Shown here: in pieces, positions 2,394 through 51,753 of the stretch | Layout: each line of letters opens with the position of its first letter | Position numbering within the stretch: the first letter of the stretch is position 1 | Origin: Auricularia sp. M13 | Lineage: Eukaryota; Basidiomycota; Agaricomycetes; Auriculariales; Auriculariaceae | Length of the DNA stretch: 64,000 nucleotides | Reading direction: 5' to 3' | NCBI GenBank assembly: GCA_037042915.1 | Contig: CM073197.1 | Location: 62,001 to 126,000, forward strand | The notes under the pieces: generated by a model | What the model saw: the letters and a program-made list of their open reading frames with translations, nothing else | Told to the model about the DNA's origin: nothing | The model's database searches: none | Program-made: the position numbers and the translations under genes

Positions 2394-5276
2394 ATGAGCA
2401 CTTCTGGGATAGGCCATCCAAAGAAGCAGACTCATTTTGCCCGAGAAGTTCCCCTTCGTCAAGGAGAAATCACCCCGACCGTAACCCGGCGGGGAACCGT
2501 ACGCGAGTTCAGCAGACCGGTATCCCGAGCGTCCGCGATCCCCGAAGAACCTGAGGAGGTAAGTCAAACACTTCCGGGAGCGTGGGCGGACGAAGAGCCC
2601 GACCTACTGACTCGGCTTGCGCGAGCAGAGACGGGTTACGTACCCATCCCGCCCGCGCAGGTTCACAGAACCCCGTCGGCAGTCCCGTCTCGTCTGGAGA
2701 AGGACGCCGAGGGGTATTATGTGACCAAGACACCCCTTCAGTGGAAGGAGGAGTCGCGGTCCCAGTATCTACCCCCCTCGCGCGAGCGAGAGGAGAGCGG
2801 GCACGGCTCGCTTAGTAGATCCCGCACATTCCGAGCGGAGGGCGTGAGTTACGATACGACTCATCAGCCTCAGTCCCGGATGCGCAGCCCGGAGGGAAGT
2901 CCTTATCGGACTCCTTATCATCCAGGATATATGGAAGAGCGCCTGCCGAGCAGGCCTCCGTACTCACCGTTGTTCAGTCCTAGCTTGGGAAGACGCTTCC
3001 CCAAATCGCCCGATACGGCGATAATCGAGCAGTTCGGACAGATCAAGAACGTGCTGCAGTCGACGCCGCAGAACGCGCGCTCCTGGAGGAGTCGCGAGGC
3101 TTCATCACAAAGCGGCCTGCCACCTGTCATCGAGGATGGCAGTGGCGGGGTTGCCTCAGTTCCCCCGTCCGCGGGACGCGGACGAGCGGGAACGTTGGAG
3201 AGTGCGCGCAGCACGCAGCAGGGCAGCCAGGCACCTCGAGTGCCTCCCAGAGCGACAGTAGTAACTGTCACTGACTCACAGGACCGCGTCAGCCGTCGCG
3301 GCATCGCGCTTGACGGATCCGCGATCCTGGAGTCAGTGAAAGGGCCTGTGCCTGCAGACCAGGGTGCAATGCAGCCAGATCCTATTAGAGCTCCTAGCAC
3401 TGCTGCTCATCTGACAGCTCCCAATCTGGAGAACAAGCCGTCCACGGTCTACTATAGCCCAGGCCGAGAGTACACGCGTACGGTCCGGTCGGACGAGAAT
3501 GTGTCACGAATTGACCAGTGGCGCCAGGAAGTGGCCTCGCAGTCGGACAGCTCGGCAGTGCGAATCCCAGAGACCTATGATGTGCCTGATGACCGCAAGC
3601 AGGGGTATGTCGTGTTCGACCCCCATTACAACAAGCTGTTCAATGGCTGGGGTCGACCAGTGGAAAGCACGAAAATCGGGCCCAGGAGAACGCAAACGCG
3701 CTATTTTACAGCGCAGCCAGAGTCGCGCCCAGGGACCCCGTCGCTCCTGCAGCGACCAGCAGAGCTAGTACCCAGCCTGGTGTCCGTGCACCGAGAATCG
3801 AGCCCACATGCCAGACCAGACGCACAGCGCGCGCGTGATCAGCCTTCGCCGGCCTCCACAGTCCGTGCCGGTCCGACTGGACCAGCGCCCGAACGCGCCG
3901 AGGCAGGCGCAGGTGATCAGACGGCCGTACTGAGCTCCCACGGCCGGCGCGAAAGAGGAAAGAGCAAGGTGCGCGACAAGCACCGCCACAAGCCGCGCAA
4001 AACCGATGCGGCGGGATCTACGCGTGATGACCGGGATAGGAAAGCACCCAAGAAGACTCAGGGTCGGTTGCAGAGGCAAGATCTGGTGATCCCCAGACCC
4101 AGGGATCCCGCTCCGCCGCGAAATCGCAAAGACCGAGCTGTGTCTGCTCCGCCGCCCGGAGGATTGCTCTCCCAGCGACTGGGCAATGCGCACTACCACC
4201 AACTGGAGGAGAGTAGCGATGAGCCAAGCTCAAACGACTCGAGTAGCAGTAGCTCCAGCTCGTCCGGGTCATCCCCAGATGACTCGAGCAGCTCCTCATC
4301 CGATGAATCGAGCAGGTCTGATTCAAGCACCTCGAGCTCATCAAGTCGATTGAGCTCCAGTGATTCAGGCCACCGCTCGGACAGTTCCAGTCGAGCCCGG
4401 CGGAAACGGCAGCATCGCAAGAAGAAGAGACGCGCCAGGAGAAAGGAACGCAAGCAGAAGATTCTGCGAGACTTGAAGATTCCTATGCCGTCGTATAACG
4501 GTGTAGATGACTATGACGCCTATGAAGCGTTCATCAGCAAATGGGACTCGTATGCGCGCGCTTATGATCTCAAAGGCGACGACGCGGTGGAAATGTTTCA
4601 ACACGCATTAAAGGGAAAGGCAAGCCTATGGTACAATAGCCATGTCTCCCTTCAGATCAGCGGTTGGACCATTCGCAAGATATACCAAGAGTTGTATGAG
4701 TATTGCTTCCCGGCTGGTTTCCGCGAGGACTTGCGCGAGAAACTTATGTCGGCAGCTCAGAAGGGACGCCCAGTGAAAGATTACGCTAAGGATCTCGAGA
4801 ATCTCGCCATTAGATACTCGGATATTGATGCGGCCACTGTCAAGCGAATCTTCTGGGACGGCGTTGATGATTACATTAAGTTATACTGGATGGACAAAGG
4901 TCTCAGCCAAGAATACACCTCGTTGGACAATCTGGTATATTATGCGTACCGGGTTGAGCGCAGGGAGCAAGAGCGGCGGCGATTGGAGCGCCGGCGCGCG
5001 ACCCTGAACAGAAGCCATCGCCCGGCGCATGGAGTCAAGCCCTGGAATGGTCACGGTCAACACGGACGTGAGAGAACTGCGGATGGACAAAGGAGAAGCA
5101 ATGCTCACGTTACGCAATCAGCATCTGTGGCTGCATCGATGCCCGCTGGGGGTGGGGTTGAAGTCGCGACGCGATCGTACTGTGGAAAATATCAGTGCCT
5201 TGCCCGTGGGAGTGCGTCTCACCAGAAAGCAAATGGCGGAGCACCGCGCGCAGAAGCGCTGCTACACTTGCCATGA
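2394..5276 (+). CDS. Chromovirus gag region
   Basis: This long frame starts 60 bases after the 5' LTR. The first 600 or so residues are basic, proline-rich and low in complexity, with a serine-rich tract (about residues 610-650) followed by an arginine/lysine-rich tract. A retrotransposon gag domain follows at about residues 700-880, recognisable from the IPMPSYNG start, the repeated W/F positions and the helix pattern around LWYNSH. Gag forms the particle shell of such elements. The long basic and serine-rich leader is unusual for a chromovirus gag. The end of this frame overlaps the start of the pol frame. Confidence 0.8.
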   Translation: MSTSGIGHPKKQTHFAREVPLRQGEITPTVTRRGTVREFSRPVSRASAIPEEPEEVSQTLPGAWADEEPDLLTRLARAETGYVPIPPAQVHRTPSAVPSRLEKDAEGYYVTKTPLQWKEESRSQYLPPSREREESGHGSLSRSRTFRAEGVSYDTTHQPQSRMRSPEGSPYRTPYHPGYMEERLPSRPPYSPLFSPSLGRRFPKSPDTAIIEQFGQIKNVLQSTPQNARSWRSREASSQSGLPPVIEDGSGGVASVPPSAGRGRAGTLESARSTQQGSQAPRVPPRATVVTVTDSQDRVSRRGIALDGSAILESVKGPVPADQGAMQPDPIRAPSTAAHLTAPNLENKPSTVYYSPGREYTRTVRSDENVSRIDQWRQEVASQSDSSAVRIPETYDVPDDRKQGYVVFDPHYNKLFNGWGRPVESTKIGPRRTQTRYFTAQPESRPGTPSLLQRPAELVPSLVSVHRESSPHARPDAQRARDQPSPASTVRAGPTGPAPERAEAGAGDQTAVLSSHGRRERGKSKVRDKHRHKPRKTDAAGSTRDDRDRKAPKKTQGRLQRQDLVIPRPRDPAPPRNRKDRAVSAPPPGGLLSQRLGNAHYHQLEESSDEPSSNDSSSSSSSSSGSSPDDSSSSSSDESSRSDSSTSSSSSRLSSSDSGHRSDSSSRARRKRQHRKKKRRARRKERKQKILRDLKIPMPSYNGVDDYDAYEAFISKWDSYARAYDLKGDDAVEMFQHALKGKASLWYNSHVSLQISGWTIRKIYQELYEYCFPAGFREDLREKLMSAAQKGRPVKDYAKDLENLAIRYSDIDAATVKRIFWDGVDDYIKLYWMDKGLSQEYTSLDNLVYYAYRVERREQERRRLERRRATLNRSHRPAHGVKPWNGHGQHGRERTADGQRRSNAHVTQSASVAASMPAGGGVEVATRSYCGKYQCLARGSASHQKANGGAPRAEALLHLP

Positions 5277-8200
5277 GGAGGGACATGACTCGCGAAATTG
5301 CCCGAAAGGAAACTCCCACAAACGCACCGGAATTCGCGCTGCGGCGATCGTGCCTGCTGAGAACGCTCCCACACAGCCAGCGAAACCCAGGACTCTTAAG
5401 CCGAGAGTCCGACGCCCTGTGAAGGCGTTGCCTTCTGCCGCTGTCCGCGTCATGAGCACTTCATTCCGCAAGGATGAACTCACCAATTTCGTCCGAGTCG
5501 CCGTCCACCTCGCTGCGCCAGAGGCGCGTGGCATCGAAATCCGTCGCGCCCAGCTCAGAGCCGCGCTCGTCAACTGGCACGACCCCAACACCGCATACAA
5601 CTGCGGATTCCTCAAGCCGGAGCATCGTTTCCACATCCTCACCGCGGGAGACGGCGACGCACCTGACATCATGCCCGAGTACCTCGTCGCCTTCGACGAG
5701 GTCCGCAAGGCCGAGCTGGTCTTCCTGCTCTCAGCTTTCGGGCCGCTGGGCGTGGACGTGGGCTGTGTCGTCGCTCACCATCTCGGGATCGCTGAGAGTG
5801 AGCTGGGCCGCATCTTCAGCATCGGAGGACGCGCGCCGCCGCTCGTAGAGCGCATCCTTGGCGCTCTCACCCGCATCGGAGACACCTGGGCAGTTGTCAA
5901 CACTGTCTTTGACCTCGTCAATGCGGGAGGAGACGAGACGGACCGTTGGCTTTTGCAGACCGACGGAGCCGAGTTCTGGGCGCGCGACCAGCTGTACGGC
6001 GCCTGCTACAAGCTGTCCCAGGCTGAAGTCACAGCCGGGCTGACACTCGCTGAGGTGCTCCAACGCACCCAGCTTTCGCCTCGGCCTGGAGCACTGGTAC
6101 GCGGGTCGTCTCGCGTCAGCCTCCCGGACACTGACAAGGCCCTCAGCAAGGCCGCGAGCTCACCCGTTGCTCCAGCTTCGCCGCTGACGCGCAACGCGAC
6201 TGGCAGGCTCCGTTCGAACCCAGCGCGGCCGCCGTCACACGTCGTGGCGAGTGGGTTGACTACCTCGAGAAACGCCGCTTCCGACTCTTCTCTCGCGACG
6301 CCTCGTACCGCCCGGTCAGCCCAGACCCTCAACCTGTCAGCGAGCGTGACATCTGGAAAGAGTACGCACCGGATGCCAGCTATGAGCGCCTTCGCCACTT
6401 CGCCTCCGACTCGGAGAGTGGCGAATCCATCGAAGTTGGGAGCGCCAGTGAGAGGGCCGCGCTCATGGAAGACGTCTCAGGGAATTACGGGCCTGCCGAT
6501 CCCATCCCTGATCGCCCGCACGCGCCGGCGCCACCATCTGAAGGCGACGAGGACCGCGAGTCGGTCGTCACGTATAGCAACATGCCGGCGTTGCTCCCTC
6601 CGTCGTCACCGAGTTCGCTGTCGGCGATCTCGTTTGTCGAGGTCCCAGACGAGGTGCCCGTTCGCCCGGACCTGGCGCCGTCCGAACAGGCGAGCAGCCT
6701 ATTCAGTGCCGCGTCCCGCGAGTCCTCCAGCGCGTCCGACAGCAGCGCCAGCTACGGAGACGACGGCATTATCATCGCCCTGCCACGCGCGCGCGGACGA
6801 GAGCCGCGTCTCCGGCGTCAGCGGGCATATCTTGACCTGCGCCGCGGCGCGCGTGTCGTCAGCGCCGCAGAATTCATCGGCCGTCAGCTCGGACTCGAGA
6901 CCAGCAGTGACGAAGAGTGAGCGTACCGTGAACCGTTTGCCGAAAGGAGGGATGCGAGTTAAGAAGGACGAGCGTTTGTTCCCTATGCCCGTAACGGTTT
7001 TCGTGTTCATTAATGGTCAACGATGCAATGCGCTAATAGACTCGGGTTCGCTCACGGATTTCATGTCTACGACGTTGGCGGACCAACTGAAAGTTAAATG
7101 CAAGCCCAAAGCTCAGCCATTAGATCTGCAGCTTGCCATTGTCGGTTCCCGATCTAAAGTAAACGTGGAGTGTGAGACGCGGTTCCGCTATCAGGAGATC
7201 GACGAGAAGCGCACCTGGGATGTAGCAAATGTCGACTCGTACGACATTGTCCTCGGTACACCATTCATCTGGCAGCACTCAGTGCTCATCGGACTTAACC
7301 CTACTCGGGTACTCATAGGCAGCGTACCTTCTCGGCCACTGGAGGGAAAAACGATGCTGGTGCTGCAGTCGGCCGCGACGCGCATAGAGACCCGGCGAAT
7401 TGATGACTTCCGCGCGCGAGTGTTTGCAGTGGCAGCCGATTTGTTCCAAGAAGCCGCAAACACACCGTTGCCGCCCCTGCGCGCGTTAAATCATGAAATA
7501 CCACTGAAGGACGAGAATATGATCTATCCGTACCGACCCTCTCGATGCCCAGAAGCTCTTCGGCCCCTCTGGATTAAGAAGAAGCTTGACTATTTGAACA
7601 CCGGGAGATGGCGCTATTCCGCGGGCGGCACGTGCTGTCCGTTGCTTATTATTCCCAAGCCAAAGACGCCCGACGGCCAGATCAAGATACGTACCGTCAT
7701 AGACACTCGCAGGCGGAATGAGAACACCATAAAAGTGGCGGCCCCGTTGCCGGATATCGAAGAAATCCTGCGCAACGTAGTTAAACATCAGTTCCGCAGC
7801 CTAATCGACGGCAAGGATGCGTATGAGCAAATCCGCGTGAAACCTGAGCATGTACCCCGCACCATGTTCAATACACCGGACGGGACCCTCGAGAGCCTGG
7901 TAATGCAGATCGGCGACTGCAACGCGCCGGCGACCTATCAGACGCTAATGAACCATATTTTTGCGGCCTATATTGGAGTCTTTATGGATGTATATCTGGA
8001 TGATATCATTGTGTATTCAGACACGGCTGAAGAGCATGAAAAACACTTACTACAGGTGTTTGAAGTGCTTAGAAAAGAGAAGTTCTTCCTAAACCCCAGT
8101 AAGATGCAGCTGTACGCCGACGAGCTGATCATCCTCGGCCACGTCATCGACCGTGATGGGATCAAAATGGATCCCAACAAAGTCGACAAGGTGGTCGCCT

Positions 8201-10397
8201 GGCCGGCGCCGACCTCGAAGGGCATGCTGATGTCGTTCATTGGGGCAGTTGGCTTTCTGGCCAACGACTGCCAGGGCATCCGCGTGCCGATGGGGACTTT
8301 GTCCTCGCTCGTCGGGTCGACCCAGCCGTTTGTCTGGAAAGATACGCACCAGCGCGCGTTCGAGCTGGTCAAGGAGATAGTGCAAAAGCACCGGGATCGG
8401 CGCCGGCATGCAATAGACTATTCAGGGTCCGCCGGTCCGATTAATCTCATTACCGATGCGTCCCTGACGGGAGCAAGCGGGTACCTTAGCCAGGGGTCCG
8501 ACGTCCAAACCGCGCGGGTAATCACTTTTTGGAGCGCAAAGCTGAACAGTGCGCAGCAAAATTACCCGGTACATGAAAGAGAGCTCTTGGCCATCGTAGA
8601 ATCCTTGAAGCGCTTCCGACCCATGCTTCATGGGGCCAAGTTCCGCATTTGTACCGATCATAAGGCCCTCATTCACTTTATGAAGCAGAAAGAGCTCTCA
8701 CAGCGGCAGATGCGGTGGTTGCATGTTCTAAACGAGTTTGACTTTACGATTGAGTACATTCCTGGCGTGGATAACATTCTCGCGGACGGTCTTTCTCGTA
8801 TATACCAGGAAGATGAGCCTGGCACCGTCCGCACTCCGGGAGAATTCATTACTGAGGCCGACGACTCCTCTCCAGAAGAGGAGGAGACGGAAGTTCCGAT
8901 CTCCGCACCGGTGTTTGTAGGTCGGGCAGTTTTACTATCTGCACTGCAGCCGCGCCACTCTCTCGGGAGTGAACCCGAGGACCTAGCCAGGGCGCCCAGG
9001 CGATCGGCGCGGCTCCGAGGAGAGAAAGGGCCGCCAGTAAAAGACATCCGGCTACGCTCAGGCCCGAAGAAGCAACTCTCCACCACGCCACTGCCCGCAT
9101 CTGAACCCGGCAGTGATACCGAACCAGTTAGCGAAGTAGAATCTCTGACGGAAGAAGAATCCCTCTCGACTGGAAAACTTGCAGAAACTACGGCTACTAG
9201 CACGATGCCGGACTGCAATGACATCAGATCTACGGGTTTAGCGGCCATCATTTCGCAGCAGAAGCCCGGCATCGACATCAAAGCGACGGTACAAGGGCAG
9301 TACGCTCTTGATAAATTCTTTGCCAAGGTACTCGCTAGCCCGGGCCAGTTCAAAAACTTTGAGGTGTCCGGGCCGGAGGGCGAGGAGCTAGTTTTCACCG
9401 TGCAGGGATCGCCACCCAGGCGGCTATTGTGCATCCCCGACGTAGCAGCGAATGGCACCAACCTCAAAGAAGTCCTCATAGAGCAAGCTCACAGCATTCT
9501 TGCTCATCTGGGTACTTTCAAGACGCTCACTTACCTGCGAGAAGAAGTGTGGTGGAAAGGAATGGTGGTCGATGTTAAAGACTACATTGACTCTTGCCAC
9601 ACTTGCCGGACTACCAAAGACAACACTCAGTCCCCCTTGGGCCTGCTTCAAACGTTGCCTGTACCAACTCGGCCGTGGGAAATGATTGGGATCGACTTTA
9701 TCGGGCCTCTGCCTACTTCTCAAGCTCGTCACGGCCGCTATGACCGAATCTGCACCATCATCGACCACTTCTCAGCCATGGTACACTTGGTCCCAGCGCG
9801 AACGTCGTACACAGCCATAGACATGGCCGAGCTACTGTTTCACTCGGTCTATCGCCTGCACGGCATGCCCGAGTCCATCGTCAGTGACCGAGATGTTTTA
9901 TTTACTAGCCCATTCTGGCGGAAGTTGCATGAATTGACCGGAACTAAATTGCGCATGTCAACGGCATACCATCCACAGACCGATGGCATGACAGAACGCG
10001 CGAACCGCACCATCGGTCAGATGGTACGGCAATGTATCGGTGAAACCCAGAAAGACTGGGCAGGGAAATTGCCAGCAATTGAGTTTGCCTTGAACTCAGC
10101 AACATCCACTACGACCGGGTTCAGCCCTTTCTTTATGAATTATGGCTATAACCCGAACGCGGTCACGTGGGACAAACCACCGGCTTATCCCGGCGTGCAA
10201 CGCTTCGCAGAAGCAATGCGCGAAACCATCATGGCGGCCCACGACGCAATCATTTCAGCACGAGTCGATCAGACTATTCAGGCTAATAGGCATCGTAGAC
10301 CCGCCGAATTCGCGGTCGGAGACAAGGTTTACCTCAGTACAAAGAATCTCACGCTTCCCAAGCAGCTACGGCGTAAGTTCGTACCCAAATACATCGG
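5029..10397 (+). CDS. Chromovirus pol region: zinc knuckle, protease, RT, RNase H, integrase
   Basis: A CCHC zinc knuckle (C-x2-C-x4-H-x4-C) lies near 5263-5305. The protease active site ALIDSGS is near 7032. Reverse transcriptase carries the YLDD box near 7995, RNase H the LITDAS start near 8450, and integrase its zinc-binding HHCC part (9490-9610) and catalytic DDE core (9690-10015, with IGIDFIGPLP and the YHPQTDG-x2-ERANRT segment). Between knuckle and protease lies about 1.5 kb that I cannot match to the usual chromovirus plan. The region stops where the Plavaka element is inserted; the missing end lies at 22110-22574. Confidence 0.88.
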
Positions 10398-10419
10398 CAT
10401 CACGAAATCCGGCCGGATC
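10398..10419 (+). repeat. Left terminal inverted repeat of Plavaka element 1
   Basis: The 22 bases here are the exact reverse complement of 22088-22109. Two G residues just outside are duplicated on the other side. The repeat does not begin with the plant-type CACTA. Confidence 0.92.
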
Positions 10420-10440
10420 TGGTACAGCGTTGCGGAGTTG

Positions 10441-10560
10441 ATAAGATTCCGGCAAGGCTTGCGACACCTTGCAGCGCATTGCCAGCCGTCATAAGATTCC
10501 CGCCAGACTTGGGACGGTCTTGTAATACGAAGAATCCTTGTAAACGCCTTTCATTGCATG
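10441..10560 (+). repeat. Subterminal repeats, left end of Plavaka element 1
   Basis: The motif ataagattcc followed by a (g/c)-rich stretch and (g/a)cttg(c/g)gac occurs at 10441 and again at 10491, a 50-base period. A weaker copy with aatccttg follows near 10531. Similar caagg/cttgtgg motifs occur near 21950-22060 at the other end. Subterminal arrays of this kind are transposase-binding sites in CACTA-type elements. Confidence 0.55.
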
Positions 10561-10705: not shown

Positions 10706-13700
10706 TCACACAAAGAAATCTAGATCGTACAAGTCGTCATCCATGGCCAGATCATCGTTGTCCTCTGAATCGTAGTCCGTATCCCGATCCTCATCCAGAT
10801 CTTCTGCGTAATCATTGAGATCGTCCATATCGTCGTCAGGGACATCTTCGTCTGCGCCCGCGTGCTCAGTTTGCTGCTCCGAGGGCACAGGCACAGTGTC
10901 CGCTGGCTCGGAGTCCTCAGCCGCCGACTCGTCCGCAGGAATGGCTCTACGCGTGGCGCTGGAGGTTGATACACTGGCCGCCGATGTTGTAGTGTGCCCG
11001 ATGCCACCACCTCTATATCGCATGAAGAGGTCACGATCGGACCATCTGTTGCGCTGTCAGCGGCGAAGAGCTACGAACTGTGTGCTACGTACCGCATGAC
11101 ATAGTACCAATTCCAGTCCACTGGCTGCTTTTGGATACTGACAGCTGAACGGCGGAAGCCATGGGCAAACGCTGGTACGATGTGGCAGGCCCTGAGGATG
11201 TGTCGCGGATCAATGAATCCATACTCATTTTCTCTATCCCAGCCAAGACGCATGAGGCGTGGGGGCCCGTTAGGCCCGCAAGCACTGAGGTCCCGACCAA
11301 ACCAATGAACGTGTAGGAATACCATGCGCTGAGGCGCTGCTGCTGAGCCGCGCAGTGCGTGGTATGCCTTGACGTGGTAAATGCCAAGCACGCGGGCGTA
11401 CCAGTAGGGGTGCCCGTCCTGAGAGTCTTCTTCGCGCGAGCGAAGAATAACGTCGCACCGGTCGGTATGGCTGCGGATGAAGTCGTCGCCTTGTCGTACA
11501 TCGTAGGTTGTGTACTTGATGTGCAAGTCGTGATGTTCGTACATCCGCCGATCCACGATAATGACTTGCGCGCGCTCCTGATCCGAGTACGCTGTCTCGT
11601 CGCCATCGTATTCCGTATTGAGAAGTCTGCCAAGCAGGTGATTCCGCAACTTGGTTGTGAATCCCTGCTAGACGTCAGTTATGAATTGTCCAACCCGATT
11701 GATGGCGCACCTCAACTGCTCGTTGACCGGCACGCTTCTTGACCCAGTCCCCGATCACTTCAAACACTTTCTCGCGCAGAGATACGCTATAAGAGAGCCC
11801 TCCCGTGTCGGGCGGTGAAGGAGACGTCGAACCGCCTGAGGGCTGGGGGCGAGGAGCTGAATCGGCTCTATCTGGTGGCACCAGGCTACGCTCCGCACGA
11901 GCGACGATCCTTGCCGTATTTGACTGGATGCGCTCCATCTCACCCATTTGCGAGGTTGCGTTTCGCTTATTGCTGCGCCGATATCGCTCCTTGAGCTCAG
12001 GGTGAGTATTCTCGGTCTAGTGCAAAGTCAGAAAGACCGCCGGCAAGCAGGAATTATGCACATACCAAGAGAGTCGAATACGACTCCGTTGTGCCGTACT
12101 CCTCGATCGTAGGGGCATAGTCACCGAGAGCGTGCATCTTGTAAGTGTTCATATTGAATGTCTTCTCTTTTGGCCCTTTCGTTGTCGTTGTCGCCGGCGC
12201 GGCACCTGGAGCTGCCTCGCGTGCCTCCCGCCGGTTTCGTGAGGCTTTTTCCCGCGGCAGCTCCGTCGTCTTAAACGCGCTGCATGTCTCGGACACAAAG
12301 AAGCGAAGCTGAGCGCCGAGGTTACGAGTCGTGTCGCGTAGGGCTTGAAGCGTGTCTTCTGTGTGCAGCCGAAGCTTTGCCAACGCATGCCATTCGGCCA
12401 TGATGAATAGCAGCGTGAGTACGATTGTGTTGTGCGGCTCAGGTAGCAGGCCCTCGAACGCGGGAATTGCGCACTGTGAACACGCTAAGCACCGAGCAAA
12501 AAAACATATTAGACACAGTGCCTACCTGGAGGATGTCTTCAAAGTTGTGTGCAGCCAGCTGCTTCAGCTCTGAAACATTATTTTTGAACCGCCGTATCGA
12601 GAACCGCGCGAACACCGGTATTTGGCGGAATCTGTGTCCCACATGTGTTCGTCATTTCTGCAGCATGATTTGAATGCAGAGCTCACCTCCGATCTAGCTC
12701 CTCGAGCAACTTCGGGTCTTGTGCTTGGAGGAGGCGGAGTATGTGCATTAGCAACGACTTCCACACACCGAGCTCGACTTCGTGCAGAAGATCGACCGTG
12801 AATAGCTTGAAGATTGAGAACGACGGGTGAATCGATCTCAAGACCGAGAATGCGTTCTGTAAGTGCAGTTATATTTGTGAAGAGGTTAATTCCGCACAGG
12901 ACACACCTTCGTGGCTACAAGAGACGTAGGCTTGAGAAGCTTCTCAACCGTGGTACTCTTGAGAGCGCAGATCCCACGGCGAATCCAGCCAGTGACCTTG
13001 TTAATGCAGTTCGTCCAAACCGTGCTGTGCTCGCGTGCACCGTTATGCGTATCTCGTCATCAGCAGCTGAACCGATCTCTTGAATTTCCGCTTTCTTGAC
13101 AAGACAGCGAGGACAGGGACAGTCCCCGTTGTCACGAAGCGTCGCAAGCAACATTCTGCGATAGATGTAATGTGTTAATAGCATAGAAAATGAGGCACTC
13201 ACTTCTCAGGATAATCCGCAATGTAGGTAAAGAAACGCGGATAGAATCGGCGAGTAATGCCGTCTTGACATCGGACGAGGAAGCCATGGGCGTAGGCATC
13301 CCGAAACTCGTCGTCCAAGATGTATTGCCAGCAGCCTTGCATCAACTCGCGCCGGAGATGCGCGAGAAGATTACGCTTCGTGGACTTTGGGATCTCCATC
13401 TTGTTGATCTCGTCATTAATAGAATCGGGCAACTGTAGAGCATCTTAGTAATTGAGAAAGAATGTTAATACACGATAGACCTACCTTTGGAAATGATGCA
13501 AAGTGGTGCATGGCGTGAGCGCTCTTCTCGAGGCGCGTGTTCTTGCTCTGATTTCCGCATCCGGTGTATCCAGGCCAGCCGCTCGCTGTGCCGAACTGGG
13601 CAAGATGTGTACCGTCTGAGCCCTGCATCAAGAGCAGAACACAGCGCTCTATGTCGTCTTCGGGATCCCGGGGAAGTTTCTGAACCTCGTCATGCAGTTT

Positions 13701-14809
13701 CTGGGCACGCGGGGAATGGTAGGCCTCGCCGGCAGTACGAACTTCGCGACCATCGGCGGTACAATGCATCAACTTCGATGGGACCCAAGTCCAATTTTTG
13801 GCGTCAGGATTGTTCTCAATTTCGCTCTTCCAGAGCGGGACAAGAGGGCGACGTTGAAAGCCTTCTACGGGAACAGTGACTGGCTGCTTGCCTTTGCCGC
13901 CTGGAATGGTGACATTGACAGTGTGTGAAAGCCAGCCATCCCCGAAGCCCCCCAGATCACCCGAAACCTCCTTATCCACCTGCTTCCAGTTGATGTCGCG
14001 GAGGTCATCAAGCACGAAGTCAGAATCCAAGATCAGGTCGAGCAACGTCTTCCGGCTATCGCGCGTTTTTACTGAGCCGTCGTTCCAGAACCAATGATTG
14101 AAACGAGCAGCGCTGCGATTGGGATAGGGGTACCAAGACACAGAGTCGTCATCAGAAGCAATCGACAGCTGGGAGCTGGGCGCCTGTGCAGGATCGTGCG
14201 CAGGTTGCTGCCGAAAGATGCGAAACAATCCAAAGGCATTGACGGCAGTGCGGAAGGGCTGGGTGACTCGCAATAGTACGCGGCTGACGGCAGAAGTTGC
14301 AGGCTGCGCAGGCGCCAGAGTTTCCGGCTCGAGGTCACGGAATTTGCGCGGTACGCGATGCTGAGTGCGGCGACGCGGTGCTGGCTCTTCGACCATGGGA
14401 TCTTCGGCAACAGTAGGCGGCGCCATGTCCGGCAGGGGCCCGTCGTCCGAGACAGGCGTGGGCTGTTGAACGTCGAGGTCAAGCGCGCCTATCTGTGATC
14501 GGTTAGATAGAGCGTACGTACAAACGCTTAACGTCTAAACGATGCACTCACCGTGTCAACATCCATAGCTACATCGCTGCATGCAGAGGTGGAGGCAGTG
14601 CCTCCCGCAGATACTGGGGCTTGTCCATGTGCAGCTGTGCCCGCCAGAGTGAAGCGAGCGCGCTTTGCAGCGGGGCCAGAAGACACTGATGTCTGCGCTG
14701 CACGCTTGTCCAGAAGCTTCTGACGGTTCGCCTTGTGCTCGTCGCACACCCTCTGGTGCGCCTTCAAGTGTGCGGCATCTGTATACTTGCCACAAATGCA
14801 CTGTGGCAT
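10706..14809 (-). CDS. Plavaka-type transposase, 10 exons, one apparent frameshift
   Basis: The product is a large transposase that would bind and cut the element's ends. Exons I infer, in reading order: 14809-14552, 14492-13485, 13432-13203, 13155-12907, 12856-12687, 12631-12526, 12473-12066, 12016-11711, 11667-11093 and 11045-10706, about 1216 residues. The N-terminus has a zinc-finger-like CxC...HxxxH motif (CICGKYTDAAHLKAH). The core contains DGTHLAQFGTASGWP, a CPCPRCL zinc-binding segment, LLHEVELGVWK, and a C-terminal FMRYRGGGIGH followed by an acidic tail. These are hallmarks of the mushroom Plavaka family. All exon phases agree except inside exon 4, where the frame changes by one base near 13,055, so this copy may be inactive or may carry a sequence error. 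Confidence 0.85.
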
Positions 14810-15081: not shown

Positions 15082-18000
15082 ATGTCGTCCTCTGCAGCTA
15101 ACAGCACCCCCAATCCGCCATCTGGTACTCAGAACCACGCGGGCAGCGGTCACAAACGCGCGGCACCCGAGCTTTCGCGCAGCGGCAAGAAAAAGAAGTG
15201 CGTGCATCGCGCGTCTTCACGCGTTTTCACGCGTCTTTACTTACTATTGGCTTCTTTAGATCAGTATCTGGCATTTGGGTCGACTATGGCCGCATATATG
15301 GGCGTGCATATAACTTTCTGGACCCTGCGGGCTTCATTCTGGATCTCGGGATCGAGATTGCAATTGACCGTGCATCGGCTGAGGAGGCCTGCGAGGACTA
15401 TGAAGTAGATGAGTGGTTCGTGCTTATTTTCGTGCCTAAGATGTCTCTAATTCCTATGATAGTGACCGCCGTATCGAGGTCGCATTCCTCGCGCTCGAGA
15501 AAGAGCTCAAGGCCAAAGCACCCGAGGCTCTCAAAGACATGGAACTGGCGGCAACGATTACTGGACAGGTCTGTTGACACTATTATGTGCCTATTTTTCC
15601 TCGCTGATGTCCCTGCAGATCGACGAAGGCATCAGCAGGGCCAAGGCTGATGACACCTACTCGCTCAAGTTGGCCATAGTCGAGTGGCTCCCCGAGGTTC
15701 CCGGCGCACCTAAGCTATCCCGGACTAACAAGGCTGGCCGCGGGTTCAACCACCCAGCTACTGGCCGTTTACTTATCCCAGTTGGTTCCGTCTGGACCGC
15801 AGAGTATGTCTCCGCTTCGATCCGCATTGCTGCTTCAGTTTCTGACGCTCTCTCAGACTGCAAAAGCAGATTCAGGATGGCGAGATGACGTTCACTGGTG
15901 AGGAATGGCCATATCTCATGTATAAGGATGAGAAATACGACCCGGAAAACCCGTGGAACGGTTTGGGGAAGAATGAGTACGCTGTAAAGGTAAGAAATAA
16001 CTGTTTATCTTAGTTCAGTTGCTGAGACCTCATTCAGACCTATAAACACTTCTTCACAAGCCCGTCGTCTGCCGAAAAGGAAAACGGCGGGGACAGCGGA
16101 ACATCACGCAAGGGCAATGCTGCACTTCACAATTACGACTCGGTCACAGTCGGTTCTATTTGCTATGTTCATGCGCATGTAAGTGGCTTTCTTATCTATT
16201 CCAGTCTATTATCTTTTCTGATTTGCAATGACAGCTCAAATTCGCGCTGTCCTCCGCAGCCACCCCAGGCACCTGCCTCGGAAGCAAAATTTGGTTCCGT
16301 AGGGGGGTTTCTCTCATACAGAGAAAACCCCCTATGATCTGGCCGATGGCCAGCTTCGTCTGCCGCCGCCGTGTGCTCGTCAGCCGCTGCCGCGCGTTCG
16401 TCGGCCGCTGCCACGCGCTCGTCGGCCGCCACCCCCTGCTCATCGGCCGCCTCCCCCTGATCATCGGCGGCCACCGGCGCTTCCGGCAAATCCCGAAGGG
16501 GGCGCTGGGGCCGTCGGGACCGGCCGGAAAGATCCGAAAATGAAGCGTCGGGCTGCCCAATGCTTCGTCGGCCAGTCTGCAGACCGGCGCTTGGTCGTCG
16601 GCCGGCCGTTGACCGGCTTCGCCAGCGGCGGTCGGAAATGGCCGACGGCACTTCTAATCCTTCGTCAGCGGCCCTTCTGACCGGCGCTTAATTTCTGTTC
16701 GTCGGCCGGCTCTTGACCGGCGCTTAATCGGCTTCGCCAGCGGCTGGTCGGAAACGGCCGATGGCGCTTTCAATCGTTCGTCGGCGGCCGTATCCTTCGT
16801 CGGCGGCCGTACCCTTCGTCGGCGGCCGTATCCTTCATCAGCAGCCGTGCTGACCAGCGCTTAATTGCTGTTCGTTGGCGGGCTGTTGATTGGTGCCTAA
16901 TTGGCTTCGCCAGCAGCTGGTTGGAAACGGCCGACGGCCATCTCAAGCCTTCATCGGCCACCATGGCTGACCGGCGCTTAATAGGTTTTTCGTTGGCTAG
17001 CTGAGGACTGGCACTTAATCAGCTTCAACAGCAGATGGTCCTTGGCCACTGGCCAAGCAATGCTTGCCTGCCGACAAACCAATGCTTGCTCGCCGACGAG
17101 CAAATGCTCGGCAGCCACCAAGGAACATACTCAGTAGCTTGGATCACTGTTTGTTGGCCAGCTGCCCAATGCCATAACAAAGACATTGAAATGTGTATCA
17201 GAGTAGTTTCAGTGGCAGGCAAACAAAATCTTGGCTGCTGGCCAGGGGAAAGCTTGCCTGCCGACGAACAAACAGTCGGCCGCCGCCGAACAAATGGTCG
17301 GCCGCCGACGAAGGTCGTTCAGTGGCAGGCAGTGGCCAGATACTGCTGAAATGAATCTCCTTGAAACTTTGGCTGTGTGATCCCATATATACTCATGTTG
17401 TCCCAGTGAATTATCAGACTCCCAGATGGTCTGGATAGAGTGCTATCCATGCTTCAAGTGAGGAAGCACAACAGGCCAACCACTGCTCCAATTGTCGAGC
17501 TCGAATGGTGAAAGTGTGCTGTTTGACATCTCTGAAGGCGTTCCAGGTTGCAAATTGTGAGTAGATGCATTGGTTGACCTTCGGTGCAAATGGCCACTTT
17601 TTGCTCAACAATGATCAGTTCACCCAGGGAGGGTTTGTTAATTATATCCTGAGTAACTCTCGCTGTGGGTTGCAGGACACCATAGAAGATTTTCGAGATA
17701 GTATGCAGGTCTGTATATTTTGAAATGATGGTGCAGTGTGCGATTTCGCCGGCCGGCCTCCCAAGGCCAACAGACCTCATAAGCCGAGGTCAGACATTGC
17801 TCCAAGCATGTGGATTTGTTGGAATACATCCATAACATCCTATCCCAGAGTTTGGTTGCAGGGGATGCGGAATTGGTGGAGGAATTGCATTCGCAATTCT
17901 GCCCCTCAGTTTCTGTCCAGAAGGACTTTCACCCAGAGCGCATTTGTTAATTATATTCTTAGCAATTTGGGGTGCGTATGCCAGGACCTCATACATGATT

Positions 18001-20786
18001 TTTGAAATAGTTTGCAGGGCTGTATATTTTGAAACGATGGTGGGGTGAGCGATTTATCACTCCCAGCCTTCCCACCCTCCTAGACCTCAGTACCCAACCT
18101 TATAACATGCTCTAAGCCCATGGGACTATTGTATAGTATGCCTACATGAACCTCCTGAAGTTTGAATGCAATTGATTAAGAACTGGTGGAGAAATGACAT
18201 GCGCATGTGGTGGAACTGAGTTGTAGCCAAGTTCACCATGAATTGCACATGCAACCTACCCCACTTTCCAGGTCAAGTGTCTCAGCGCCCATATAACACG
18301 TTATCTCAAAGATAGCATTGGGTACATTGGTTTCATGAGGTCCTAGCTTCTGAGAAGCATGGGCTGGAGTGTGGAGTAGGTTGTAACTACATATCCTGGT
18401 GAACTCACTGCAAGTCATACCACCCTCCAGCCCATGCTTCTCAGAAGCTAGGACCTCATGAAACCAATGTACCCAATGCTATCTTTGAGATAACGTGTTA
18501 TATGGGCGCTGAGACACTTGACCTGGAAAGTGGGGTAGGTTGCATGTGCAATTCATGGTGAACTTGGCTACAACTCAGTTCCACCACATGCGCATGTCAT
18601 TTCTCCACCAGTTCTTAATCAATTGCATTCAAACTTCAGGAGGTTCATGTAGGCATACTATACAATAGTCCCATGGGCTTAGAGCATGTTATAAGGTTGG
18701 GTACTGAGGTCTAGGAGGGTGGGAAGGCTGGGAGTGATAAATCGCTCACCCCACCATCGTTTCAAAATATACAGCCCTGCAAACTATTTCAAAAATCATG
18801 TATGAGGTCCTGGCATACGCACCCCAAATTGCTAAGAATATAATTAACAAATGCGCTCTGGGTGAAAGTCCTTCTGGACAGAAACTGAGGGGCAGAATTG
18901 CGAATGCAATTCCTCCACCAATTCCGCATCCCCTGCAACCAAACTCTGGGATAGGATGTTATGGATGTATTCCAACAAATCCACATGCTTGGAGCAATGT
19001 CTGACCTCGGCTTATGAGGTCTGTTGGCCTTGGGAGGCCGGCCGGCGAAATCGCACACTGCACCATCATTTCAAAATATACAGACCTGCATACTATCTCG
19101 AAAATCTTCTATGGTGTCCTGCAACCCACAGCGAGAGTTACTCAGGATATAATTAACAAACCCTCCCTGGGTGAACTGATCATTGTTGAGCAAAAAGTGG
19201 CCATTTGCACCGAAGGTCAACCAATGCATCTACTCACAATTTGCAACCTGGAACGCCTTCAGAGATGTCAAACAGCACACTTTCACCATTCGAGCTCGAC
19301 AATTGGAGCAGTGGTTGGCCTGTTGTGCTTCCTCACTTGAAGCATGGATAGCACTCTATCCAGACCATCTGGGAGTCTGATAATTCACTGGGACAACATG
19401 AGTATATATGGGATCACACAGCCAAAGTTTCAAGGAGATTCATTTCAGCAGTATCTGGCCACTGCCTGCCACTGAACGACCTTCGTCGGCGGCCGACCAT
19501 TTGTTCGGCGGCGGCCGACTGTTTGTTCGTCGGCAGGCAAGCTTTCCCTGGCCAGCAGCCAAGATTTTGTTTGCCTGCCACTGAAACTACTCTGATACAC
19601 ATTTCAATGTCTTTGTTATGGCATTGGGCAGCTGGCCAACAAACAGTGATCCAAGCTACTGAGTATGTTCCTTGGTGGCTGCCGAGCATTTGCTCGTCGG
19701 CGAGCAAGCATTGGTTTGTCGGCAGGCAAGCATTGCTTGGCCAGTGGCCAAGGACCATCTGCTGTTGAAGCTGATTAAGTGCCAGTCCTCAGCTAGCCAA
19801 CGAAAAACCTATTAAGCGCCGGTCAGCCATGGTGGCCGATGAAGGCTTGAGATGGCCGTCGGCCGTTTCCAACCAGCTGCTGGCGAAGCCAATTAGGCAC
19901 CAATCAACAGCCCGCCAACGAACAGCAATTAAGCGCTGGTCAGCACGGCTGCTGATGAAGGATACGGCCGCCGACGAAGGGTACGGCCGCCGACGAAGGA
20001 TACGGCCGCCGACGAACGATTGAAAGCGCCATCGGCCGTTTCCGACCAGCTGCTGGCGAAGCCGATTAAGCGCCGGTCAAGAGCCGGCCGACGAACAGAA
20101 ATTAAGCGCCGGTCAGAAGGGCCGCTGACGAAGGATTAGAAGTGCCGTCGGCCATTTCCGACCGGCCGCTGGCGAAGCCGGTCAACGGCCGGCCGACGAA
20201 TTAAGCGCCGGTCTGCAGACTGGCCGACGAAGCATTGGGCAGCCCGACGCTTCATTTTCGGATCTTTCCGGCCGGTCCCGACGGCCCCAGCGCCCCCTTC
20301 GGGATTTGCCGGAAGCGCCGGTGGCCGCCGATGATCAGGGGGAGGCGGCCGATGAGCAGGGGGTGGCGGCCGACGAGCGCGTGGCAGCGGCCGACGAACG
20401 CGCGGCAGCGGCTGACGAGCACACGGCGGCGGCAGACGAAGCTGGCCATCGGCCAGATCATAGGGGGTTTTCTCTGTATGAGAGAAACCCCCCTACGGAA
20501 CCAAATTTTGCTTCCGAGGCAGGTGCCTGGGGTGTCCGCAGCCACCTTCTCAAAGACGGACTCCACCAAGAACGGCGACCTCGAAGGCTTCTATGGCTCG
20601 CTCTACGAGCTGCTAACTGATCCCGACGAGAAGGAGAACATGGACGAGCTGTTGAAGTGGTGGAACAAGCGCATCTTCCCTTCCGCTCGCCGCACGCGCG
20701 AACGCTCCGCCAAGAGCACCCGCGAGCAGTTCCGCCGTGTGCGCGAGGCTTGCGCAGCCGCTCAGGAGGCCGATTCATCTGATTAA
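15082..20786 (+). CDS. DUF6698-type partner gene of Plavaka element 1, split by a palindromic insertion
   Basis: Exons: 15082-15197, 15260-15412, 15463-15568, 15619-15803, 15857-15989, 16038-16178, 16235-16260, then, after the insertion and the second copy of its target duplication, 20543-20786. The phases agree and give about 367 residues for the uninterrupted gene. The protein has a lysine-rich N-terminus, a central NHPATGRLLIPV segment, TFTGEEWPYLMY, NPWNGL, HFFTSPSS, LKFALSSA and a C-terminal LLKWWNKRIFP, the pattern I associate with the agaricomycete DUF6698 family. It sits inside the transposon's TIRs and shares a promoter with the transposase, so it is probably a second transposition protein comparable to the TnpA/TnpD pairing in CACTA elements; that role is inference. 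As it stands the gene is interrupted. Confidence 0.75.
16261..18369 (+). repeat. Left arm of the giant palindrome
   Basis: The reverse complement matches 18425-20534 with only a handful of mismatches and 1-2 base indels that I could see, for example near 16597, 16626, 16740 and 17246. These are too few to shift the pairing noticeably. The arm's inner end carries a small palindrome, gcttctgagaagc. Confidence 0.93.
17600..18200 (+). repeat. Diverged direct repeats of about 315 bases inside the arm
   Basis: The segment starting near 17630 (ttgttaattatat... then gtatattttgaaa(t/c)gatgg) recurs starting near 17945 in the same order with roughly one base in four changed. A weaker third unit is suggested near 18190. 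The same repeats appear inverted at about 18595-19195. The inner arm therefore grew by tandem duplication before the whole arm was mirrored. Confidence 0.6.
18370..18424 (+). other. Central spacer of the palindrome
   Basis: Fifty-five bases of unique, non-palindromic sequence separate the arms. It would form the loop of the hairpin or the tip of a cruciform. No motif is recognised. Confidence 0.9.
18425..20534 (-). repeat. Right arm of the giant palindrome
   Basis: This is the inverted copy of 16261-18369. Its outer end runs straight into the second copy of the 8-base target duplication and then the rest of the DUF6698 exon. Confidence 0.93.
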
Positions 20787-31970: not shown

Positions 31971-32409
31971 TTAGAGCGCCGACACGGTTGACATCTGCTC
32001 CTCTGATCTCGACGTTCTGCACTTCCGAAAGATCCAAACCGCTACAGGGCGCCGCAACGCGCGAAATCCTGCTCTGTGCTCAGCTCCGCACGGTAGACAA
32101 CCACTGCAGGTGTAATCGAGCGTACTGTCTAATAACGTCCGGGCAGATGATTTATTTACCTTCGGTTCTTACCAGAATGCTACCATGCCACAGTCCCCGA
32201 TTCTGCCACCAATGTCAAACTGTACTAAGTTACCCAGAGATTTATTTCGCTACAATGACCGTTGAACCCAGCCGAGATAGAGATCCGAACTACATACAGT
32301 ACTGTACTAACTACAAGAACGCGCGAAAGCAAAACAAACCAGACAAACAAGCGAGCGAGCTACAAAACAGGACATCCAGTATACTACACATAGAACTTCC
32401 GGGGGCGGG

Positions 32410-32500
32410 GGCGACGACACCGTCGCTCCGCACACAGAGCGAGAAAGTCGTCGCTCCGCACACAGAGCGAAAACGTCGTCGCTCTACACATAAAGCGACG
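32410..32500 (-). repeat. Short tandem repeat over an F-box gene's 3' end
   Basis: Three copies of a unit of about 33 bases (gtcgtcgctc(c/t)(g/a)cacacagagcga(g/a)aa and a diverged third copy) lie head to tail. The third copy contains the predicted stop codon of the adjacent F-box gene, so slippage here could change the protein's end. Confidence 0.6.
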
Positions 32501-34241
32501 CCGTGGCGGGAAAGCACTGCCACCAACTGACGTCCCAATACAAATACTCGTCGCACCCCTCGCGCGCAAAGCCCCACTCGCGGCGCACCTCGCAGCACCC
32601 GCCGCCGCACACCTATTTCAGAGTCAATATTGCCCGACCTCATCTGGACAATCAAGCGCACCTCGGCGTCTGGGACGTCAAACACCACGCCGCGCAGGAC
32701 GAGCGATTTCACGCTGGGCGGGATCCAGCGGCGCACGCGCGCGGCGGGGAGGAGGACGGGGTCGTACACGGGGCTGTAGCGCTCGTACGCGGAGAGGCGC
32801 AGGGTGTGCAGCGCGGGGCACGCCGTCAACCGGGGGTCGTCGTCTGTGCTGCTAGACGAGGAGGAAGCGGAGAAGAGATGGCGGCACGGCACGGCGGGCT
32901 CGTGGCCCAGTATAACCGTGAGCTCCTCCAAACCGCCAAACGCACTCTGCAGCGCACAATCACCCAAGACAAGCGCGAGCAGCGCGTCGCCAATCGCGAG
33001 CACGCGGACGTCTGCGAGGCGGTGGCGCGCGGCGCGCAGGGCGTCGAGGACGGCGAAGAACGGCTCGTACTCGACGCACCTGGCCGTCCCGTCGGCGTAC
33101 TTGACGACCAGGCTCGCCTCGTGGCGGCGGTACGGCTCCGCGACGACGTACACCTCCGACAGCCGGCCGGGCGCGGACACCGCCATCTGGCGCAGCGTCC
33201 CGCTCGTCTGCAGGATGCGCAGCTCGGCCGCGCGCGCGGCGAGCGACGCGAGGATGCCGTCCGGGACGAAGCCGCGCAGGCAGAGCCGGTCGAGCGGCGG
33301 CGGCGCGAAGCCCGCCGGCACGTCTTCGCCGTCGAACTGGTCCGCGACGAGCGTGAGGTCGCTCAGCGCGGGCAGCGCGGCGCAGAGCGCGTGGACGTCT
33401 GCGGTGGAGACGAACGGCATGGCGTAGTAACCAAAGTCCCAGACGGCCTGCAGCGCCGCCTCCTTGGCCGTGGCGAGCGAGAAGGGGAGGTAGGCGTTGA
33501 CGAGCATGACCGAGACGAGGTGCGGCGCGCAGCCGGCGAAGAGGCCGTCGGGCAGGCGCAGCGACTTAGCCGAGGCAGCGTGCACCTGCAGCGTGCGCAG
33601 CGCGGGCGCGGGCGCCGTGAGGATGCCCGCCCAGGGCGATCCGAGCTCCAGGTCGTCCAGCGCGACGCACAGATGGCGCAGCCCGCCAAACGCGCCGCAC
33701 ACGAGCTCCGTCACGGGCAGCACCTCCTCCGCCAGCGCCGGGACGGCCGCCTGGATGCACAGCGTCCTGCAGCGGCCCCTTGCGCGCTCCAGCGCGCGCC
33801 GCAGCGTGTCTGCCCAGTGCCCGCCACTGCCGGGGTAGTGGAAGGCGATGTTGATGGTGGACCACAAGGACGCGTCGGCGGTCAGCGCGGCGCGCCAGCG
33901 CCGGCACACGCGCGTCGCGGCGTCCAGCGCGCGGAACGGCAGGAACGCCGCGACGTGCTGCAGCAGCTCCGTGGGCAGCGTCCGGCCGACCGGCGCGCGC
34001 GCGTTGCGGGCCGCGGCGAAGTCGTCCAGCGCGCCAGCCGCGACGCGCAGCACTTCCGCGCGCAGCGCCGACACCGCGCTGTCCGCCGCCAGGCCGTCGC
34101 CGCTGCACAAATGCAATGAGTCAATAAACGCTGCGGGCCGGACGTTAGACGTTACCTGTGGGCCATGACGGGCAGGGCGGAGGCGGCAAAGGCAAGTATC
34201 TTGTCGTGCAGCTCGCGCTCGAGCGCCGCGGTGAGCAGCAT
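32484..34241 (-). CDS. F-box protein, family A
   Basis: This is a probable substrate-recognition subunit of an SCF ubiquitin ligase. Exons: 34241-34156, 34102-32662 and 32612-32484 (introns of 53 and 49 bases). The N-terminal helix (MLLTAALERELHDKIL...) is followed by an F-box (LPTELLQHVAAFLPFRALDAATRVCRRWR) at about residues 75-115. A long leucine-rich-like region follows in which short strands alternate with alanine-rich helices. With the last intron removed the protein ends in an aromatic, acidic tail (DEYLYWDVSWW). If that intron were retained, the frame would run through the downstream tandem repeat. The paralogue at 50091-51753 has the same exon 1/intron plan. The gene is very GC-rich in third positions. 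Confidence 0.8.
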
Positions 34242-49577: not shown

Positions 49578-50090
49578 GATCAGTGAAGAAAGAGCAGAGC
49601 ACGCTGCATCGCCTGCGTGACCCGACTAGGCGCCCAACCCACCAAAGCAACGGTGATTTTCACACATGCTGCGCCACTTCTCGAGGGAGAAAACAGATCA
49701 CTATCGTTTGGGAAGATGACAACGTATTCCTTCATATGGTGGTAGAGAACCGCAGTGAGCTATTTATTGTGAAGCAAGAAAACGTCGCCAACTCGGAGGA
49801 CCCATGTCACAGCTTGTTCAACAACTGCCACAAGCCGCCACCTTCTCCACCAAAAATTTCCCGAGTCGCGGTGACCTCCGCAATTTACGTATCGATGGGT
49901 ACAAGTGAGTCTCTGGAGTGCAGAACCGCTCGGCATCGCAGTCGTCATTGCCGTCGTCCGGAGCGCATAAAACGTCATTCTACTTCACCGACTCGGACCG
50001 TCGGACACAGCAGGATACAAAAAGCATGATGCAGATTAGAGATACACTCAGAATTAAAGATACAGTACACGACGCAAGCACAGAGACAGG
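49578..50090. other. Intergenic, one orphan exon-like stretch
   Basis: A short plus-strand stretch at 49803-49911 reads as a plausible first exon (MSQLVQQLPQAATFS... GYK) followed by a donor gtgagt. I find no continuing gene, because the next sequence is antisense to an F-box gene. It may be a gene fragment. Confidence 0.25.
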
Positions 50091-51753
50091 TCAGACCTGG
50101 AGCGCATCATCAAACGGAAACGTCCACTCCCACTCCTCCTCGTCCTCAACCGAGTACGGCTCCTCCGGCCGCTCATCCACGACCGCCCACGCGCCCACCT
50201 TCGCACGCAACACCCCCAAGCCAGGCTCACACAACACGATACCAGAAATGCGCAAACAACGCACACCCGCCGGCAACCATCGTGCAACATGCTCAGCGGA
50301 CACGCGCAGGAACTCGCCCGCGGCGTTGCCCCGGCAGCCGGCGTGCACGAGGTGCACGCTCTCGAGCTTCGGACACACTTGGGCGAGCGGCGCGTCCTGC
50401 AGCACGAACGCGTGGGTGTACTGCGCGCCGAGCGGGCCCGAGAGCGCGAGGTACAGCGTCAGGCTCACGACGGCGGGCCACACAGCCGGCGCGGGCAGCG
50501 CACACAGTTCCAGCCAGACCGAATCGGGGAACACGACCCGCGTCACCGCGCGCATATCGTCCAAATGCCGTCTCACGAACGCCAAAACAAACCCCTCCGC
50601 GACGCGCGCCACGACATACTCCGCGCCCGCCTCCGAGTCAGAGGCGATCGCAACGCTCAGCCGGTCGCCCGCGCCGAGCCAGTACACGGCGACGCGCGCG
50701 AGCGGGTGCGCGCGCAGCACGAGCGCGTCGGCGTACAGCGGCAGCGGCTCGTGCACGACCACGCGCCGTGCCCGTCTTGCGAGCGCGTCGAACACGCCGT
50801 CGCTGACGACCTTCTGCACGCACAGCTCGCGGAAGGCCGCGCCGAGCGCCCACCCGCCGACGTCCGCGGCGGTCTCGTAGCCCCAGCTGCCCGCTACGAG
50901 CCGCGCGAGCCGCGGCGCGAGCGCCAGCGCGTTCGCCACCTCGCCGCCCGTCAGCTTCGCGAAGCGGAAGTAGCCGAGCGTCGTGACGCCCGCGAACGCC
51001 GCGCACGGCGCCGCGGGCGTCACGCAGCAGTGCAGCAGCACCGTGCGCAGCGCCGGCGCCACACCCGCAAACAGTGTCTGTGGAAGCACATACACCGACG
51101 CGAGCGCGTAGCGGATGACGCGCAGCGTCTGCAGCGCCGGCGCGGGGTGCGCGAAGATCTGCGCCCACGCGCCCTCGTCGGCGGGGACGAGGTCGACGGT
51201 GAGGCTGCGCAGCGCGCCGAGGACGGACGTTACGAGCGGCACGACGAGCGGGTCGCCGAGCAGCTCGTGCGGGCTCTGCACGGCGAGCGTCTCGAGCGCG
51301 CCGCCCGCGCGGTGGACGACGGCGGCGGCGGACGTCGCGTCCACCGCGCCGTAGCCGTTCCAGAAGAAGACGGCGTCGCGCCAGAGCCGCCGGTCGCCGA
51401 CGAGCGCCGTGCGCCAGTGCGCGCAGACGAGCGCGGCGTCGGCGCGCGTGTTGAACGCGCTGTGGGCCGCGACGCAGCGCAGGACGTCCGCCGGCAGCGC
51501 GTGCACCGGCAGCCGGGCGTTGCGCCGCTGGGCGCAGAGGGCCATCTCGGTCTCGAGCGCGTCGTGCAGCTCGCCGCGCAGCTCGTCGATCGCGCTGATG
51601 CTCGGGATCCCGAGAGCACTTGGGTTCGGCGCCGCGTCAGAGAACGGTGGGCGCGCGGCGGCGGGCTCACTCGTGGCACATAACGGGCAGCGATGTCTCC
51701 ATAATCTCCCGTATCAGCTCGCGCAGGCGGTCCCGGTCAGTCTCGCGCAACAT
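50091..51753 (-). CDS. F-box protein, family A second member
   Basis: Two exons (51753-51671 and 51594-50091; intron of 76 bases, gtgagc...tcag) give about 528 residues. The start helix MLRETDRDRLRELIREIMETSLPVMCH parallels the start of the 34.2-kb gene, with a phase-compatible intron at the same place after the VM-(A/C)H motif. The F-box reads LPADVLRCVAAHSAFNTRADAALVCAHWRTAL (about residues 60-92). The rest is alanine/leucine-rich with LRR-like strands, and the end is acidic and aromatic (EDEEEWEWTFPF). Codon third positions are extremely GC-rich, which creates long antisense open frames that should be ignored. Confidence 0.82.

Follow-up and report, generated by a model that had tools for sequence, protein, structure and literature searches.

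Background

Foldback transposons such as Tetris and Tm1 have long inverted repeats, and in sex-chromosome palindromes gene conversion keeps the two arms of a locus similar. Palindromes of several kilobases are expected to be unstable. Tetris (PMC4079207) and Tm1 (PMC3169594) are named foldback transposons, and arm-to-arm gene conversion has been described for the sex-chromosome palindromes (PMC7023750). Galileo, an element of the P superfamily in Drosophila, has inverted repeats which are 98–100% alike within a copy, for which conversion has been proposed. Its 2-TIR elements average 1.7–2.2 kb with 7-bp duplications, and chimeric copies with unlike arms exist which, in the parts of that paper drawn on here, are without matching duplications (PMC3573991). 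The same paper puts MITEs as short elements, usually under 600 bp, of high copy number.

Within the Kyakuja-Dileera-Zisupton (KDZ) superfamily, KDZ1 of Cryptococcus neoformans is about 11 kb in length with 241-bp inverted repeats and an encoded transposase (PMC12810828, PMC12730594), and is associated with 8-bp duplications and with KDZ and CxC1 domains (PMC12810828). Zisupton also makes 8-bp duplications, and the Kyakuja families are given, in the same part of that source, as having 7-bp duplications and no inverted repeats (PMC12730594). No palindromic KDZ or Zisupton element was found among the literature titles and abstract openings listed, a set that lies mostly outside the subscription literature.

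Architecture of the Palindromic Element

The window, a stretch of 64,000 nucleotides from Auricularia sp. M13 (contig CM073197.1, positions 62,001 to 126,000), was found to possess a palindromic element of 4274 bp (16261..20534). The left arm (16261..18374, plus strand) begins with the tip CACCCCAGGCACCTGCCTCG, and the right arm (18420..20534, minus strand) is the reverse complement of the left. Between them lies an asymmetric spacer (18375..18419) which is homologous in other palindromic copies. The tips are identical over 20/20 bp at both ends. Aligned over 2106 bp, with the central 60 bases left out, the arms show 3 mismatches and 3 gap events. An earlier note on this DNA had described a near-perfect palindrome with arms of about 2.1 kb and few differences, which agrees with these values; its 55-base spacer is corrected here to a strictly unpaired centre of 45 nt. 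A chance origin of the palindrome is excluded because of the length of the arms.

Each arm carries internal repeats. Four 21-nt tandem units (repeat family D15) lie in the tip region of the left arm (16356..16439, plus strand) and are mirrored in the right arm, and the two units of a 128-nt repeat (D7; 77% identity, spacing 309) are found at 17619..17746 and 17928..18055 on the plus strand of the left arm. The element has the long inverted repeats, short middle and internal repeats of a foldback transposon, and its assignment to that type on the ground that it is nearly all inverted repeat is upheld. The exceptional size attributed to it stands in part only, Galileo inverted-repeat elements averaging 1.7–2.2 kb in the part of the report consulted (PMC3573991). 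No Pfam domain, and hence no KDZ transposase by Pfam, was found in the six window-arm ORF translations scanned, out of 31 stop-to-stop ORFs of at least 70 aa listed, in line with the reported absence of coding content. Classification as a MITE was considered and ruled out, as the five uninterrupted palindromic copies measure 4.2–4.7 kb and only 37 tip sites with up to 2 mismatches are present genome-wide.

Other features of the window include an LTR-type retrotransposon (2394-10494) with overlapping gag and pol ORFs of 960 and 1821 aa, and an ORF on the minus strand (13416-14426) whose match to Plavaka transposase is weak and falls slightly below the Pfam cut-off. Two regions (32001-34000 and 50001-52000) have a GC content of 0.67–0.68, an AT skew of 0.23–0.25 and long overlapping ORFs on both strands. 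A protein search with an ORF of the window gave no hit at E 0.001, and one with an RdRP ORF of the genome gave 13 hits, the highest at 59% and the highest named ones from Exidia glandulosa (53%) and Auriculariales sp. (45%), which points to an agaricomycete that is probably close to Auriculariales.

Insertion Site and Interrupted Gene

The element is flanked by an 8-bp target site duplication, TCCGCAGC, the left copy of which (16253..16260) is missing in the alignment with paralogue L034 and the right copy of which (20535..20542) is identical to the left; the 8-base duplication had been noted before. A query made by joining both flanks, with both copies of the duplication retained, gave an element-free alignment through the insertion site in 4/4 paralogues aligned (74.5–76.9% identity). 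In the L034 alignment, the one printed, the paralogue has exactly 8 bases fewer at the site, which corresponds to the extra copy of the duplication.

Two ORF pieces of L034 match DUF6698 (PF20414) with E-values of 8.3e-23 and 2.6e-26. Since the insertion site falls inside one of these pieces, the element interrupts the coding sequence of a DUF6698-family gene. The left part of this gene, as far as it was compared with L034, spans 15461..16260 and the right part, which runs to the stop codon according to the ORF list and the paralogue alignment, spans 20535..20786, both on the plus strand. The earlier note had spoken of a host transposon; the insertion lies in a DUF6698 gene, which is not evidently a transposon.

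Copies Elsewhere in the Genome

One arm was used as a query against the organism's own genome (52.1 Mb, 14 contigs) and returned 85 matches in 33 candidate regions. The tip pattern, with up to 2 mismatches, occurs at 37 sites, and its reversed control at none. Ten tip pairs are flanked by duplications of 8 bp, the length given for KDZ1 and Zisupton; eight of these are exact, two agree at 7/8 positions, and all ten differ from one another. The ten pairs comprise seven palindromic copies, namely C5 (the window element), C4, C6, C9, C2, C7, and C11a, of which C7 and C11a contain further inserts, and three long elements. The duplications of the palindromic copies are exact in five, the window included, and at 7/8 in two. 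Movement as a unit, proposed earlier from the window alone, is borne out by the empty site in 4/4 gene paralogues and by the separate duplications (four exact, two at 7/8) that flank the other six palindromic copies of this assembly.

A half-length, non-palindromic progenitor, which the earlier note had envisaged, was not recognised among the single-armed pieces read. These look truncated, C13 retaining 110 nt of the opposite arm and C1 ending before the centre is reached. Such a progenitor may remain among the 17/37 tip sites which are unpaired or lie within nested or truncated pieces.

Several related arrangements were also seen. Nested pieces are present at C10 (L011, L012). A 2.7-kb piece comprising element arm and flank is present twice in inverted orientation at 98.9% identity (L020, C1:9010500-9014500; L021, C1:9069500-9073500), and about 57 kb separates the tips. 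Three imperfect palindromes, no shorter than about 1.0–1.2 kb and with arms 76–87% alike, are located at L043, L044, and L045 (C2:3681300-3682700, C10:51700-53000, and C10:158100-159400, respectively). They have a module of about 75–84 bp in common with the inner arm of the window element and are perhaps its decayed relatives.

Relationship to KDZ Elements

The three long elements measure 16, 21, and 33 kb, and KDZ transposase matches were found within 3/3 of them (C11:2619082-2619784; C3:2151383-2152076; C8:1712960-1713664 and C8:1729466-1730193). ORFs of the 16-kb element match KDZ at an E-value of 1.5e-17 and CxC1 at 9.5e-7. The 33-kb element (C8:1708106-1741254, with its ends in L028 and L031) has matching tips, an exact 8-bp duplication and two KDZ regions, and may hold a nested insertion or cargo. 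The inverted repeats of the 21-kb element are 542 bp long and 97% alike, those of the 16-kb element about 594 bp and 93%. Across the genome, 149 KDZ profile matches were counted with 150/163 candidates scored. None of the 149 lies within the seven palindromic spans; a single match is found some 1 kb away from the C4 copy. With transposases so numerous, any of several could be the acting one.

Palindromes and long elements share two types of tip. The type CACCTGCCTCGG is common to the C5 and C4 palindromes and the 16- and 33-kb elements, and GTCACCACGG is common to the C6, C9, C2, and C7 palindromes and the 21-kb element, being present in C11a with one change. Past the first 20 bp of the tip the likeness is moderate (75–89%): a family I palindrome matches long-element tips at 75–77% over about 200 bp (L028, L029, L030) and the L031 tip at 89% over 92 bp, and a family II palindrome matches at 84% over about 185 bp (L038, L039). 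Against a long element of the other tip type, similarity is 65–67% or there is no match at E 1e-5. The inner arms of the palindromes gave no match at E 1e-5 in the long-element parts read.

As possible transposase-binding arrays, shared short motifs were counted in palindrome arms and in the four end segments of the 16- and 21-kb long elements. The motif GCGCTTAAT occurs four times in the window arm, four times in the C6 arm and not at all in 59.2 kb of window background. Its absence from all four end segments speaks against shared transposase-binding sites. The motif TCGTCGGC is enriched in both arms, occurring on the given strand 8 times in the window arm and 5 times in the C6 arm, with 2 and 7 on the two background strands; in the end segments there are 0–5 per strand, in some segments only. 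The Zisupton branch fits the element in both duplication length and inverted repeats. The most fitting reading of the window element is that of a non-autonomous derivative of foldback type, with KDZ transposases as the predicted source of its mobility.

Arm Likeness within Copies

Differences between the arms of a copy number 3/2106 in C5, 11/2086 in C4, 1/2295 in C6, and 8/2287 in C9, a divergence of 0.04–0.53% in 4/5 uninterrupted copies. When the window element is compared with C4, 93/2081 sites separate the two copies and are the same in both arms of each, 14 set a single arm apart, and none is arm-linked or crossed. Among the 21 pairs of the seven copies there are no arm-linked or crossed sites in 16 pairs. 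The exceptions are C4-C7 (1), C4-C11 (1), C2-C7 (2), C2-C11 (21 and 2), and C7-C11 (5), most of which involve C2 or C11; for the C7 left arm and the C11 right arm the comparison covered inner parts only. In a tree of 18 inner-arm sequences, a copy's own arms are sisters in C5 and C4 (1.00 each), C7 (0.98), C9 (0.95), and C6 (0.95); the arms of C2 are not, nor are those of C11. The arms appear to have been copied onto each other, so that each copy keeps a matching pair even as the copies diverge. The arms of C2 differ at 129/2228 positions (5.8%), with 2–4% outside the block described below, so homogenisation is not universal.

A block of 265 bp exists in two forms, A and B, which are 19% apart (50/265, C6 vs. 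C7), in sequence which otherwise differs by 1–4% between these copies. C6 and C9 are A/A, C7 is B/B with 0/266 differences between its arms, and C2 and C11 are B/A. Between the arms, the block diverges by 20% in C2 (53/265) and by 25% in C11 (27/108, the 108 bp being the part comparable between arms), and beside the block the arms of both differ by 0–4%. The remainder of the C11 right-arm block, beyond an insert, is 94% identical to A and 86% to B. The window counterpart of the block (17332..17591, plus strand) has about 84% identity to A and to B, and the family I copies, C5 and C4, are roughly equidistant from both forms (17–18%), so neither is clearly older. B is on the left arm in both C2 and C11 and the spacer orientation is opposite in the two, which places B on opposite arms relative to the spacer. 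This fits separate transfers or an arm-to-arm recombination inverting the middle. The A/A, B/B, and B/A states are read as arm-to-arm copying caught at intermediate stages, and these copies provide markers for timing and measuring such copying in a fungus.

Origin of the Palindrome

A centre of 491 bp gave full or near-full matches at nine places, among them each of the seven palindromic copies, and partial matches at C13 and C1. When orientation was tested with the C6 spacer, one orientation scored 47–70 and the other 14–27 in 8/8 copies. With a centre and spacer common to the seven copies, the palindrome was most likely formed once, before the split of the two families. The arms of C5 and C6, compared per 200 bp, differ by 24–38% in the outer kilobase, by 20% in the next window and by 2–15% in the inner 800 bp, which suggests that outer or inner parts may have been exchanged between families. 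If tips have been exchanged with the core kept, the family illustrates a way in which non-autonomous elements may come to use new transposases.

Discussion

The favoured explanation, to which we assign a probability of about 0.85, is that of a non-autonomous foldback DNA transposon moved by KDZ-superfamily transposases of larger elements with the same tips, its arms being homogenised by copying. The transposase of a larger element would cut and paste the palindrome. After a single palindrome-forming event, one arm would have been copied onto the other, most simply by gene conversion as a break, a stalled fork, a cleaved cruciform or a gap left by excision is repaired, and exchange with other copies could import diverged tracts which then spread from arm to arm. 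The earlier account of a mobile, foldback, non-coding element holds, but it omitted the KDZ-carrying relatives with the same tips and the homogenisation of arms within copies. Despite the expected instability, seven palindromes occupy different sites, each with ends and duplications that match, and two of the seven contain inserts.

A tentative extension is that of a self-correcting mobile palindrome, in which breaks induced by transposase or at cruciforms keep copying arm onto arm, so that the core persists and tips are swapped to follow different KDZ transposases. If true, the family would repair its own ends without any coding capacity.

It is unlikely that the arms are instead renewed by snap-back synthesis in each round, whereby an arm that is broken or has become single-stranded would fold back at the spacer and serve as its own template, and copies would be born as perfect palindromes. 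This route, too, would yield arms that are nearly identical, as well as the A/A and B/B states, and the shared centre is compatible with it. However, C2 and C11 have matching tips and duplications (8/8 and 7/8) with unlike arms, and identical arms are therefore not an obligate outcome of transposition. Copying as far as the tip would, moreover, be expected to enter the flank, and by itself would leave no direct duplication.

Selection for the palindrome, its hairpin RNA feeding an RNA interference that restrains KDZ elements, would be a compatible addition to the KDZ-mobilised foldback explanation, and is rather doubtful. Profile matches to Argonaute (13), RdRP (19), and Dicer-dimer (3), counted exon by exon, are present in the genome, and any transcript through the element would be self-complementary; that such transcripts trigger silencing is a guess. 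As the earlier note proposed, the element may also extrude cruciforms, be hard to replicate and give rise to double-stranded RNA. In the parts compared, however, the arms match transposase-bearing elements at the tips only, so siRNAs would hit little coding sequence, and gene conversion accounts for arm identity without selection.

An assembly artefact, in which a single arm was read a second time in reverse (through missed hairpin adapters, for instance) or the arms were collapsed by polishing, is very improbable. The arm identity of 99.5–99.96% in four copies is known here from the assembly alone, and polishing could in principle inflate it. However, the flanks at seven sites are direct, unmirrored 8-bp duplications, the gene paralogues have an empty site, and in C2 and C11 the assembly has preserved arms that differ. 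Independent formation of each palindrome from a half-length progenitor would account for within-copy identity but is the least credible explanation, given the same asymmetric spacer and centre in all seven palindromic copies and the lack of any recognised intact half-length element, 17/37 tip sites being unpaired, nested or truncated.

Comparison with Known Systems

Sex-chromosome palindromes are chromosomal, gene-carrying structures, whereas the present element belongs to a dispersed mobile family. Tetris and Tm1 come from other hosts and are likened to it by name and description only. As far as the portions of the reports used here extend, the element resembles Zisupton and KDZ transposons in its 8-bp duplications and terminal inverted repeats, and KDZ and CxC1 occur together here in the 16-kb relative. 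It is unlike KDZ1 in being 4.3 kb long and nearly all inverted repeat, with no domain found. It resembles the Galileo 2-TIR and recombinant-TIR elements in being non-autonomous, in consisting almost entirely of long inverted repeats that contain internal repeats, and in having alike arms and chimeric copies (PMC3573991). Unlike Galileo as described there, it is assigned to another superfamily, its unlike-armed copies C2 and C11 have duplications (8/8 and 7/8), and one block exists in A/A, B/B, and B/A states (PMC3573991). Foldback elements with similar arms are already known from Galileo, and the present element is a variant of that kind.
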